A stretch of 64,000 nucleotides of DNA. It comes from Lentzea aerocolonigenes (GTDB lineage Bacteria; Actinomycetota; Actinomycetes; Mycobacteriales; Pseudonocardiaceae). The notes under the pieces are model-generated. The model worked only from the letters and a program-made list of their open reading frames with translations. It was not told the origin of the DNA and made no database searches. Of the stretch, positions 27,912 to 30,979 are shown piece after piece. Positions within the stretch are counted from its first letter, which is position 1, and each line of letters begins with the position of its first letter. The stretch spans positions 124,001-188,000 of the forward strand of contig NZ_BBOJ01000008.1 in NCBI RefSeq assembly GCF_000974445.1. Direction: 5' to 3'. A program made the translations under genes and the position numbers.

Positions 27912-27977
27912 CCCACAAGGGTGCCTCACCCGCACCTGGTGGTGTGGCCAGGTGGGTCAATTCGGGTGGTGACGGCG

Positions 27978-28012
27978 AGGTGGTCTTGCTTGCGAGGGAG
28001 GCAAGACCACCT
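27978..28012 (-). terminator. Terminator of the small secreted-peptide gene
   Basis: A perfect 12-bp stem (27978-27989 with 28001-28012) with an 11-base loop, 16 bases after the peptide gene stop and before the PH-domain operon. No T tract. Confidence 0.65.
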
Positions 28013-28028
28013 CGACCGGCCGGTTCGA

Positions 28029-28160
28029 TCAGGGCTTGGCGCAGTACGGGGGTGTGAAGGTGTCAGGGGTGTCGGCGGATGCCGCACCCGCCACCGTCAC
28101 GAGCGCCCCCAAACTGAGGATCACCGCGGCGATGGTTCGAGCGATAGTGTTCAACTTCAT
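28029..28160 (-). CDS. Short secreted peptide precursor (43 aa)
   Basis: A 43-codon gene missed by length cut-offs. ATG at 28160 with GGAG eight bases upstream. MKLNTIARTI then a hydrophobic core AAVILSLGALVTVAGAASA form a textbook signal peptide with an AxA site after residue 29. The predicted released product is only 14 residues, DTPDTFTPPYCAKP, proline-rich with one Cys. Its start codon lies 29 bases from that of the divergent HTH-TPR regulator, and it has its own terminator. The family is not recognised. A peptide signal read by the neighbouring regulator is the attractive inference; an alternative is a tiny exported structural or metal-binding peptide. Confidence 0.7.
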   Translation of the reverse strand: MKLNTIARTIAAVILSLGALVTVAGAASADTPDTFTPPYCAKP

Positions 28161-28189
28161 TGAGGTGCTCCGTTCGATAGGTGGCGGCC

Positions 28190-29428
28190 GTGGATGAGGG
28201 CAGGAAGTCGTTGACGAGGTTCGGCGCGCGGTTGCGGACGGTCCGGCTGCAACGCGGCCTGTCGCAAAAGGACCTCGCGTGCCCCGGTGTCTCCATGAGC
28301 TACGTGTCGCGGCTGGAGTCCGGCGAACGGGTGCCGTCGCCCGCCGTCGTGCGCAGGCTCGCGGAGGTGCTCGGCGTCGACCCGTCCGAGCTGATGGTCG
28401 ACGAGGACCGCACCGCCATGCAGGACGAGGCGCTGGCGTGGTGCGAGGCGCTGCTCGCCTACCACGACGGCGACCTGGTGATGGCCGTCGACCTGCTGGA
28501 AACGCTGGGAAAGCGGTCGGACGAGGAGATGTTCGGCTGGTGCGTGCGGTGGACTCGCCTGGTGATGCTGGCGAGGCAGCGCGACCACGAGGGTCTGCTG
28601 CTGGCGGCGGCGAAGCTGCGCAAGTCGTGGTCTCCAGGTCCGGCGGTGGACGCGCTGGTGGAGATCCTGCGCGCATCCTCGTTGCGGCGCCTCGCCCGGA
28701 CGGCCGAATCCGTGAAAGCCGCGACGGAGGCCGTAGAGCTGGCCAGTGGTGACGGCGAACGGGTGCGCCGGGTCAACACGCGCGCGCTCATCTCGTTGTG
28801 CGCGGAGCTGACGGCGGCCGGACGTCTCGCCGACGCGGAGCAGGTCGTGGACCAGCTTTCCGCGCGGCTGCCCGAACTCGGGCGCGACCGGCTCGCGATC
28901 TCCACGTGGTGGGCGCGGGCCAAGGTCGCCGACCGGCTGGGCGACCGCACGGAGGCCGCGCACTGCATCCGCGAGGCCGTCGCGATGCTCGACGACTACG
29001 ACGGCGATCCCGAGTACCGGTGCCGGATTCGGCTGGCCGGTGCGTCCATCGGGTTGCGCACGCCCGGTGCGAACCTCGACGAAGTCGTTGCGTTGCTGGA
29101 CAAAGTGGAGACGACCGTCGCGGCGATGCGCCGGCAGGGCGGCCTGCTCGCGCACGCCCGCGCGTTGCGGGCGGAACTCGCGTTGCGCGACGGCGAGGTC
29201 GACCGGGCGCGTGAGCTCGCCGAGAGCGCGCTCTCGACCGGACAGCTCGACGCCGAGCAGCAGCTGCGGTGCCACCTGCTGCTCGTGCGGGCGGCGGACG
29301 AGGTCGACCCGGACGGCAGCACCTCCGCGCGCACGGCACTGGCCGCGCTGCTGGAACACATCAACCCCGAGGGCGTCGACCCGCTCCTGTGGCGCGACGT
29401 GGCTCGCATCGCGCTGCGCAAGCACTGA
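28190..29428 (+). CDS. XRE-type HTH regulator with TPR-like C-terminal domain
   Basis: 412 residues; GTG at 28190 with AGGTGG five bases upstream (a GTG at 28181 is an alternative). Residues about 9-63 are a Cro/C1-type helix-turn-helix (RFGARLRTVRLQRGLSQKDL and SYVSRLESGERVPSPAVVRR). The remaining 340 residues are all-helical with TPR-like spacing (AWCEALLAYHDGDLVMAVDL, TKVADRLGDRTEAAHCIREA-type segments). This HTH plus TPR build is that of peptide-sensing RRNPP regulators and of many uncharacterised actinobacterial regulators. The divergent secreted-peptide gene shares its 29-bp start region, suggesting mutual control. Confidence 0.88.
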   Translation: MDEGRKSLTRFGARLRTVRLQRGLSQKDLACPGVSMSYVSRLESGERVPSPAVVRRLAEVLGVDPSELMVDEDRTAMQDEALAWCEALLAYHDGDLVMAVDLLETLGKRSDEEMFGWCVRWTRLVMLARQRDHEGLLLAAAKLRKSWSPGPAVDALVEILRASSLRRLARTAESVKAATEAVELASGDGERVRRVNTRALISLCAELTAAGRLADAEQVVDQLSARLPELGRDRLAISTWWARAKVADRLGDRTEAAHCIREAVAMLDDYDGDPEYRCRIRLAGASIGLRTPGANLDEVVALLDKVETTVAAMRRQGGLLAHARALRAELALRDGEVDRARELAESALSTGQLDAEQQLRCHLLLVRAADEVDPDGSTSARTALAALLEHINPEGVDPLLWRDVARIALRKH

Positions 29429-29642
29429 GGGCGCAAGCTCTGCGGCTGGGCGACGTTGCCCGGTCATGACCGCCCCTCGCTCGTTAACTGGACACCTTGT
29501 TAACGGAGCATGACACACACCGGATACCCCTCACATCACCCAATTCCACCCTGTGAGCATGGGTAAAACACCCAAGAACCGGCAGTAACCGGTAGGCGGC
29601 AAGCGACCGAACGGGCGATTGATCGGCGGGCCTCTCGGAGTA

Positions 29643-29662
29643 ATTGTCAATTACTTGACAAT
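29643..29662 (-). terminator. AT-rich hairpin at the end of the LuxR-type gene
   Basis: A perfect 8-bp inverted repeat (ATTGTCAA at 29643-29650, TTGACAAT at 29655-29662) spanning the stop codon of the minus-strand regulator. It could terminate transcription; the AT content is strikingly unlike the surroundings. Confidence 0.4.
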
Positions 29663-30979
29663 GGATGCCTCGGTGGTGGTCAAGTTCATCCACCACACCA
29701 CGGCTCCGGCGCGTCCCTTGACGTCAAGGGTCGTGTAGATGCGCTGGAGGTGGTTCTGCACCGTCTTGGGGGACAGACCGAGCGTCTCCGCGATCATCGC
29801 GGTGCTCGCGCCGGCGGCCACGAGCCGCAGCACCTCGATGCCGCGTTTGGTGAGCCCGGCCCGCAGCGCGCGGGCGATCCGGGTGTTCGTGTGCTCCGCG
29901 GTACCGGCGTCGTGCAGCTCTCCCGGCTGCGGGACGCGTATCACGGCGTCCTCGCGCTTGGGCTCGAAACGCCTGTGCGCCAACTGTTCCACGAGTCGTG
30001 ACGACAGGTCGTGCTCGCGCATCCTGAGCAGGTCGCGGCCTTCCTGCAGCTCCCACAACCGGTACTGCTCCAGCTGGAGGCGTGCGTGCCGCAACGCGCG
30101 TTCGAGGTCGCCGGACCGTTCGTGCGCCTCGCTCAACTGCTGGTGCGCGTGCACCGCGACTTCCCGTGCCAGACAGCTCATCGCGAGCTCGGCGGCCTGG
30201 GTCAGCTGGGTGATCTGCTCCGGGTAGCGCCCCCGCGCCCCGCTCAGCCGGGCGCGCGCCATCAACGCCTCCGCCCTCGCGACCGGGCGGGTCCTTCCGG
30301 CAAGCAACTGGTCAGCGCGCTGCCAGCTGCGGTGCGCGCGGTCAAGTTCACCCAGATCGATGCGCACGTGTGTCAGCAGCACGTTGACCATCGCCATCCG
30401 CACCGGGTCGCCGACCTGCTTCCACCGGTCGCGCACCTGTGCGCACAACGCTTCCGCGCGCCGGAGCTTGCGCACGCACGGCTCGCCGTCGAGGCTGCAG
30501 CGGTTCTCCGCGGTCCGGATCATGCAGTGCTCGTGGTACTGCACGCGCAGCACCTTCGCCTGTTCGAACAGCACCGAGCCGATCAGCTCGCTGTCGCCGG
30601 TGAGCTCCGCGAGGCCCAGCGCGCGGGCGAACGAGTGGAAGCTCCGTTCCCGCGAGTCGAGCCGCAGTTCCACCACGGCACGGGAAAAGCTGCACCGCGC
30701 CTGCAGTCCGATGTGGCGGTTCGCCGCCGCGATCTCCTGCACCTTGTCGATCGTGTCGAGCGCGCTGGGCCACAACCCGCGTTTGCCGAGCGCCACGGAC
30801 TGCGTCAGCACGCCCTCCGCGACGCCCTCGACGTCGTCCAGCCACGTGAACGCGGCAACCGCTTTCTCCGCGTACTCCAACGCATCGCCTGGTCTGCCCT
30901 CGTCCAGTGCGATGCGCGCCTCGCGCAGGTTGTGCACGGCGTTGGACCGCGGATCCGCCGTCCTGCCGGGAACCGTCAT
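29651..30979 (-). CDS. TPR-containing LuxR-type regulator
   Basis: 442 residues from the ATG at 30979. Residues about 15-330 are TPR-like helical repeats (EARIALDEGRPGDALEYAEK, HAHQQLSEAHERSGDLERAL). Residues about 370-432 are a LuxR/GerE helix-turn-helix (LTKRGIEVLRLVAAGASTAM and SPKTVQNHLQRIYTTLDVKG). It lacks the AAA+ domain of the large LAL/MalT regulators. A short cysteine patch (HCMIRTAENRCSLDGEPC) around residues 151-168 could bind metal or respond to redox state; this is inference. It converges on the HTH-TPR regulator gene. Target genes are unknown. Confidence 0.87.
   Translation of the reverse strand: MTVPGRTADPRSNAVHNLREARIALDEGRPGDALEYAEKAVAAFTWLDDVEGVAEGVLTQSVALGKRGLWPSALDTIDKVQEIAAANRHIGLQARCSFSRAVVELRLDSRERSFHSFARALGLAELTGDSELIGSVLFEQAKVLRVQYHEHCMIRTAENRCSLDGEPCVRKLRRAEALCAQVRDRWKQVGDPVRMAMVNVLLTHVRIDLGELDRAHRSWQRADQLLAGRTRPVARAEALMARARLSGARGRYPEQITQLTQAAELAMSCLAREVAVHAHQQLSEAHERSGDLERALRHARLQLEQYRLWELQEGRDLLRMREHDLSSRLVEQLAHRRFEPKREDAVIRVPQPGELHDAGTAEHTNTRIARALRAGLTKRGIEVLRLVAAGASTAMIAETLGLSPKTVQNHLQRIYTTLDVKGRAGAVVWWMNLTTTEASIVK

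Follow-up and report, generated by a model that had tools for sequence, protein, structure and literature searches.

A candidate peptide signalling pair in Lentzea aerocolonigenes and its W-P motif relatives in other actinomycetes

The window, the whole 64,000-nucleotide stretch of Lentzea aerocolonigenes DNA analysed here, contains two genes placed head to head: a 43-codon gene for a small propeptide and, on the opposite strand, a gene for a 412-residue regulator that combines a helix-turn-helix (HTH) domain with a TPR-type domain. Their start codons are separated by 29 nucleotides (nt; Table 1). The propeptide, MKLNTIARTIAAVILSLGALVTVAGAASADTPDTFTPPYCAKP, was divided by eye at an AxA cleavage site into a Sec-type leader and a C-terminal end (MKLNTIARTIAAVILSLGALVTVAGAASA/DTPDTFTPPYCAKP), and the n-, h- and AxA c-regions of the leader, also assigned by eye, are kept in 24 genomes of the genus. 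A GGAG sequence ends 7 nt ahead of the ATG. The hairpin that follows the gene is strong (-31.8 kcal/mol for a 71-nt stretch, z = -3.95). The signal sequence, the ribosome-binding site and the spacing of the start codons are as the first-pass annotation of this locus had described them. Its terminator stands only in part, as the hairpin is present but lacks a T-run, and a terminator search gave no match there.

The GTG of the regulator at 28190 is preceded by AGGTGG at a distance of 5 nt, and an in-frame GTG at 28181 is likewise open and would give a 415-residue version. The protein matches the Pfam families HTH_31 (E = 1e-15) and HTH_3 (E = 3e-13). Its best TPR match, TPR_2, scores 26.1 bits, slightly below the Pfam cut-off of 27. 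In the AlphaFold model, which has a mean predicted local distance difference test score of 88.7, a helical solenoid of TPR type comes after the HTH, in agreement with the architecture first proposed. PlcR, the RRNPP receptor of the PlcR-PapR system, is the top Foldseek match of this model, and the regulator profile also matches PlcR (E = 4e-8, profile positions 16-240, partly via the HTH). An NCBIfam scan of the regulator reached no cut-off and had no RRNPP model among its matches.

Table 1. Features of the locus, in window coordinates.
Feature	Position	Strand	Basis
Propeptide gene, 43 amino acids (ATG 28160, stop 28029)	28160-28029	-	open reading frame (ORF) call; in 24 of 24 Lentzea-genus genomes
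Sec-type signal sequence MKLNTIARTIAAVILSLGALVTVAGAASA	28074..28160	-	by eye; pN/pS 0.50 over 24 genomes
Signal core FTPPY, residues 35-39 (FxPP[YF] across the genus)	28044..28058	-	pN/pS 0.29, against 0.89 in the spacer and 1.07 in the tail
Probable ribosome-binding site GGAG of the peptide gene (CTCC on +)	28168-28171	-	sequence and alignment
Terminator-like hairpin 3' of the peptide gene, without T-run	27976..28014	-	folding; terminator search
HTH-TPR regulator, 412 amino acids (alternative start 28181)	28190..29428	+	ORF; Pfam; AlphaFold model
Cro/C1-type HTH domain (HTH_31)	28217..28393	+	Pfam
TAGTGT, internal to the peptide ORF; candidate -10 element for transcription of the regulator	28145..28150	+	role as -10 putative
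18-bp palindrome TTGTCAATTACTTGACAA, possible regulator operator	29644..29661	.	genome search; genus comparison

In the genus set, which comprises 24 Lentzea genomes with the window genome counted in, every genome has the small ORF, at 43-53 amino acids. A profile search for it returned one strong match per genome (E ≤ 1e-18), the runner-up reaching 1e-5. The full regulator is present in 22 of the 24, at 84-100% identity; the other two, G003 and G013 (loci L027 and L026), carry regulator remnants with large internal deletions next to an intact peptide ORF. At the core all genomes fit FxPP[YF], most of them as FTPPY. Over the 24 ORFs, the ratio of nonsynonymous to synonymous polymorphism (pN/pS) is far lower in the FTPPY columns than in the spacer or the tail (Table 1), and it is 0.29 also in the first leader codons. 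Part of the first-codon constraint may be due to a promoter, because these codons overlap a conserved block with TAGTGT on the regulator strand. The counterparts of TAGTGT are TAGAGT in Umezawaea and Solihabitans and TAGGGT in Gandjariella. A record titled Nocardia sp. NRRL S-836 (L079) carries a Lentzea-type pair, groups with Lentzea and is probably misnamed.

Of the 34 loci from a scan of genome contigs, 20 are of Lentzea type and 8 are orthologues from outside the genus, 47-57% identical. The other 6 (L095-L100) are short, match in the HTH only and were set aside, L095, L097, L099 and L100 being reused as controls. Six of the 8 orthologues have a precursor beside them. It lies head to head and in the same place in Umezawaea (...VFTPPYQAN), Solihabitans (...VAGIDWPEDT...) and Gandjariella (...SIDWPPRAATQSGAAPAAIDWPTRAS, with two copies of IDWP), and downstream and convergent in Longimycelium and two Streptoalloteichus. 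The Longimycelium precursor has 99 amino acids and five GIEWPD copies, and those of Streptoalloteichus end in a single CGIEWPDP. In the Gandjariella and Solihabitans orthologues, IDWP is the counterpart of the FTPPY core. The first-pass annotation had named absence of the small ORF from relatives as grounds for giving up its proposal; the ORF is instead found throughout the genus and in the orthologous pairs of these relatives. Judged by sequence, the pair is real and conserved.

More distant regulators (29-34% identity) from two further genera of the Pseudonocardiaceae, g38 and g56, have a divergent precursor at 8 of 8 loci. Their cores are DITNP (six copies), D[IL]GHP (five), DLTHP (four, in two genomes), a DVxYP type (six) and [IV]xWP (three to four, in three genomes); DITNP, DIGHP, DLTHP and DVxYP all come from one Pseudonocardiaceae genus. 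In L102, the start codons are 27 nt apart. Seven loci of other Pseudonocardiaceae HTH-TPR proteins yielded one candidate only (L108, DIDWPK).

Outside this family, the profile search matched 11 of 397 genomes of the order and 4 of 396 of the phylum, with the window genome in both counts. A further search matched 13 of 61 genomes around G637 and 4 of 61 around G407, the genera being taken as Streptomyces and Nocardia. ORFs that end in DIDWP, EIDWP, EIEWP, SIEWP, NVDWP, ELDWP, PIDWP or DLEWP lie near many of the Streptomyces and Nocardia-like regulators, with the DIDWP ending in the Nocardia-like genomes. As it appears in the predicted precursors, the W-P signal motif is x-[ILV]-[D/E/G]-W-P, single or in 2-6 copies, often beside homologous actinomycete HTH-TPR regulators. 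In one genome (G1032, L205), motif ORFs stand at both 2468 and 7098, one with three IDWP copies and the other ending in DIGWPKR. The L128 regulator had no match in phages and the L114 regulator none in plasmids.

Among Streptomyces and Kitasatospora plasmids, 28 records matched, of which 19 were viewed and 9 were not. With longer flanks, 15 of the 19 have a motif ORF. These precursors are annotated as hypothetical proteins, and in L150, L151, L155, L163 and L165 the ORF is missing from an incomplete gene table. The motif occurs as four [ND]IGWP copies in NBC_00342, six copies in Kitasatospora NBC_01266, three IDWP copies in NBC_00158 and five copies in NBC_00316, and ITFR-6, a near relative of NBC_00342, has two copies, one of them NIGWS. 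Copy number and core residues differ between close relatives, as signal "dialects" would. The neighbours of the plasmid regulators include NRPS-type (non-ribosomal peptide synthetase), ketosynthase, acyl carrier and phosphopantetheinyl transferase genes, SARP regulators and metK. Also of note is that the ORFs at 4527-4787 of L158 and 4506-4649 of L159, on two related Streptomyces plasmids, have a common leader with four and two motif copies, respectively, the last L159 copy being NIGWS, which points to loss or gain of repeats.

The specificity of the motif was gauged with a strict rule: an ORF of 15-150 amino acids with [IVL][DEG]WP within its last 8 residues or at least twice. It picked out 6 of the 11 order and phylum loci, 5 of the 11 from Streptomyces, 12 of the 19 on plasmids and the single additional Nocardia-like locus (1 of 1). 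In these counts L120 and L109 are a single place entered in two groups, and one match, in L107, is a chance ORF and not the precursor of that locus. Left out of the Streptomyces count were L133 (the place of L128) and L141 and L143 (two pieces in G995). The G995 precursor was not found fully blind, as L143 spans it, and a narrower pattern had earlier missed it. The control (19 segments of 20 kb, taken from genomes that these searches had covered, 50 kb of each of two plasmids and 7 other XRE loci) gave 2 matches in 532.6 kb, both of them copies of one element. Similarly, a C-terminal [IV][DE]WP occurs in 6 of 3641 stop-ended segments at 26 regulator loci, but in none of the 1821 segments from the window, the 4832 from 14 other loci or the 40514 generated by a Markov model. 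A relaxed rule was dropped, as it gave 49 matches in the 532.6 kb control; its motif ORFs in Goodfellowiella look like chance.

In a tree of 65 regulators, the FTPPY group, made up of Umezawaea and four rows of the Lentzea clade, forms one clade with support of 100/99. It nests in a clade with the WP-bearing Longimycelium, Streptoalloteichus, Gandjariella and Solihabitans, and we read FTPPY as derived from IDWP-like cores. The DITNP/DIGHP/DLTHP/DVxYP group is also one clade (96/81), beside the WP-bearing g56. Signal labels change 14 times on the tree versus a shuffled mean of 24.8, and none of 200 shuffles is as low, a result that near-copies favour. The co-variation of signal and receptor expected from the first reading of the locus is seen as a sorting of signal types by receptor clade, but such a clade-wise pattern could come from shared ancestry alone.

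The Streptomyces loci have a palindrome in common, TTGGCAAnnnnTTGCCAA (TTGGCAAn4TTGCCAA), which lies ahead of the regulator gene and the peptide gene and also of further genes in the cluster. GCAAn4TTGC is present in 15 of 24 Streptomyces regulator upstream regions (260 bp) and in 0 of 540 control windows, figures that overstate independence because the loci include near relatives. GGCAAAn2TTTGCC with up to 2 mismatches has a density of 22 per 100 kb in 20 loci, against 1.25 per 100 kb (6 matches) in a 480 kb control. The palindrome also precedes the peptide gene where that gene sits elsewhere. Measured with an 18-mer at up to 3 mismatches (2 matches in the 480 kb control), it stands 35 nt before the peptide gene in L154. 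In L155, L164 and L166 the distance is about 80 nt, in L157 it is 124 nt and in L208 291 nt, while L158-L160 and L209 have about 320 nt. Searched for in exact form, the palindrome turned up 3 times in 61 Streptomyces genomes: next to a regulator piece and a precursor that carries three DIGWP copies (L213), by a regulator-like remnant (L212) and at a place without a regulator or precursor of the family (L214). At four Streptomyces loci, words common to the upstream regions of regulator and peptide gene did not exceed in length those of shuffled sequences; the palindrome emerged from the comparison of the 24 regulator loci.

The Lentzea palindrome, TTGTCAAnnnnTTGACAA, reads TTGTCAAn4TTGACAA and has the same geometry. 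At up to 1 mismatch, it occurs once in the 10.7-Mb genome, between the regulator gene and a convergent LuxR-type gene, whose stop codon it spans. At up to 3 mismatches, it is found in 22 of 22 regulator-bearing genomes of the genus (in L022 only at 3) and in neither of the two that have lost the regulator. Both of these retain the conserved blocks ahead of the lost palindrome, and in G003 the end of the LuxR gene is intact. The two losses may be independent events, on a tree that is weak. The palindrome is a possible binding site of the regulator. Read as a hairpin terminator, it fits less well, since in most genomes its arms are conserved letter for letter and its centre varies, a pattern that agrees better with a protein site without proving one. 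The non-coding stretch at 29450-29625 is highly conserved in Lentzea, with the blocks TTGTTAACGGAGCATGACACA, CACATCACCCAATT and GGGTAAAACACCC mostly kept even beside a regulator remnant. A conserved RNA in this gap 3' of the regulator was considered and rejected: 0 of 40 predicted pairs have two-sided changes, and the one Rfam match is far under the gathering score. The protein encoded by the LuxR-type gene (29651-30979, reverse strand) matches TPR models weakly in its N-terminal region.

The accessible part of a survey that spanned Firmicutes and viruses gives five sequence criteria for RRNPP systems (PMC10075063), and the pair agrees or nearly agrees with them. The 43-residue propeptide falls within 10-100 amino acids and the 412-residue receptor within 250-500, the genes are adjacent, and the receptor has TPRs of the peptide-binding type. 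The fifth criterion is a propeptide exported by Sec as judged by SignalP, to which the leader brings the n-, h- and AxA c-regions assigned by eye. The RRNPP-like reading of the layout is supported, and we put the probability that the window pair is a one-component peptide signalling pair working like RRNPP quorum sensing at about 0.7. The pair, its conservation, the repeated motif and the common palindrome are all read from sequence, and the fold is read from a model. In such a system, the small gene would give a Sec-exported precursor, trimmed outside the cell to a short peptide around FTPPY. An Opp-type importer would return this peptide to the cell (13 Opp-type binding proteins are present), where it would bind the TPR solenoid of the divergent regulator and alter its binding to the operator, in a direction that may be activating or repressing. 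As the probable operator lies ahead of the Streptomyces regulator, peptide and cluster genes, a feedback circuit would result. The window pair would then be one branch, that of Lentzea and Umezawaea, within a larger family of actinomycete systems with the core x-[ILV]-[D/E/G]-W-P, often in multiple copies.

Several observations weigh against this interpretation. Chief among them is that G003 and G013 retain the peptide gene without an intact regulator and that their two ORFs are still constrained (pN/pS of 0.42 between them); the peptide may therefore act without this receptor, and it need not serve this regulator alone. The same two genomes speak against a simple version of the interpretation. 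The candidate operator in Lentzea is 215 bp past the regulator and not at the common promoter, where no TTGTCAA-type site was found at up to 3 mismatches. The loss of the palindrome in G013 is confounded, because the LuxR gene end is gone too, and only the G003 co-loss is clean. Of the 65 regulator rows, 18 have no motif ORF found, including Goodfellowiella and Saccharothrix coeruleofusca, around whose orthologues 13 kb contained no strict-rule precursor, and the strict rule itself was chosen only after the first examples were known. The plasmid loci L152, L153, L167 (ambiguous) and L168 have the palindrome ahead of the regulator but no clear precursor. No signal sequence was seen by eye in the Streptomyces precursors L129, L132, L151, L155, L163 and L165. 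Finally, LGN and MalT outrank Rap in one list of fold matches, and TPR solenoids take many ligands. Three of the plasmid loci that lack a W-P precursor have a small ORF that overlaps the end of the regulator (L152 4281-4418, L153 4284-4517 and L168 4281-4418), possibly a different partner peptide.

The alternative that survives best is that the peptide is an output only, a secreted effector (bioactive or morphogenetic, for example) under the divergent regulator, whose TPR domain senses something else. Common palindromes and head-to-head genes fit this equally well, the constrained ORFs of the two genomes without an intact regulator speak for it, and the partner of the TPR domain is so far only predicted. 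However, many precursors contain little beyond a signal sequence and one to six five-residue motifs with variable spacers, some have no export signal at all, the signal types track receptor clades, and the best structural match is itself a peptide receptor. We consider an output-only peptide unlikely.

Considerably less probable is a peptide that acts unexported within the producing cell, serving as a co-ligand whose production keeps pace with that of the regulator. Several Streptomyces and Nocardia-like regulators do have beside them a short ORF that lacks a leader and ends in the motif, but Sec-type leaders are recognizable by eye in the Lentzea, Umezawaea, Gandjariella, Longimycelium and many Streptomyces precursors. 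Furthermore, the SHP signals of Rgg regulators are not called Sec-exported by SignalP and are exported nonetheless, according to the accessible part of PMC10075063. It is very improbable that the small ORF is the precursor of a modified natural product (a ribosomally synthesized and post-translationally modified peptide) and the regulator a cluster regulator. The short leader-plus-repeat precursors and the biosynthetic surroundings on Streptomyces plasmids would suit this, as would a PqqD-family peptide modification chaperone gene (L154, 980-1279) about 2 kb before the Kitasatospora regulator with the six-copy precursor. The Lentzea neighbours, on the other hand, are PH-domain proteins and the LuxR regulator, and 0 of 8 precursors match an NCBIfam model and 0 of 7 reach a Pfam cut-off, modification enzymes not having been systematically sought. 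A chance ORF or an artefact of promoter conservation, which the overlap of the first codons with the promoter-like block might suggest, is refuted for the genus by the 24 of 24 conservation and the pN/pS pattern, with core constraint 100 nt away in an open frame of varying length and motif matches nearly nil in controls.

Returning to the peptide signalling interpretation, it seems fairly probable that these loci represent a so far undescribed quorum-sensing family of the actinomycetes' own. It would consist of HTH-TPR receptors and a W-P pentapeptide that drifts to DITNP, DIGHP and FTPPY, is often in tandem, occurs also on Streptomyces linear plasmids and is wired by TTGGCAAn4TTGCCAA to antibiotic-type clusters. 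The part of PMC10075063 accessible to us presents small molecules as the typical signals of actinomycetes and treats peptide signals of this sort as a feature of Firmicutes. The accessible part of PMC4748050 has a table that lists TPR proteins among the quorum-sensing-related domains of Streptomyces and also, by bioinformatics, among those of Rhodococcus, Saccharopolyspora and Thermobifida, with no peptides mentioned there; that of PMC9765709 does not mention actinobacteria. Among the literature matches listed, none reports HTH-TPR/peptide pairs in actinomycetes, and the string IDWP appears in unrelated fields only; as many papers behind subscription, and bioRxiv as a whole, are outside these matches, the novelty is provisional. 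If the interpretation is true, a short peptide encoded in the genome would control clusters of antibiotic type and offer a simple chemical key to those that are silent, since such peptides are cheap to synthesize and their sequence can be read straight from the genome. Thanks to the motif, the palindrome and the natural losses of the regulator, ordinary soil strains allow a direct test of the idea.

The pairs resemble PlcR-PapR and NprR-NprX, RRNPP systems with HTH-TPR receptors and exported signals, in having a small precursor, here with a predicted export signal, that adjoins an HTH-TPR regulator of 250-500 amino acids. They differ in belonging to another phylum, in the core (x-[ILV]-[DEG]-W-P or FTPPY, in up to six copies), in the TTGGCAAn4TTGCCAA palindrome and, in Streptomyces, in the biosynthetic cluster context. 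The Rgg-SHP systems of streptococci likewise pair an HTH regulator with a neighbouring gene for a short peptide, in some cases divergently, and have leaderless signals as in some Streptomyces relatives; their signal sequences are unrelated, and the Lentzea pair, by contrast, has a Sec-type leader. The TPR regulators of the NsdA family (NF053720 in NCBIfam), which we take to be a Streptomyces family, share the HTH plus TPR-like architecture, but the match of the Lentzea regulator covers residues 4-78 only and reaches 14.2 bits, where the cut-off is 75. The gamma-butyrolactone autoregulators (ScbR-type) also exert cell-cell control of Streptomyces antibiotic clusters, with a small-molecule signal and another receptor class in place of a peptide and an HTH-TPR protein. 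On the NBC_00503 plasmid (L208), an HTH-TPR regulator lies near two ScbR-family receptor genes and two SARP genes, and peptide and butyrolactone-type control may meet there.
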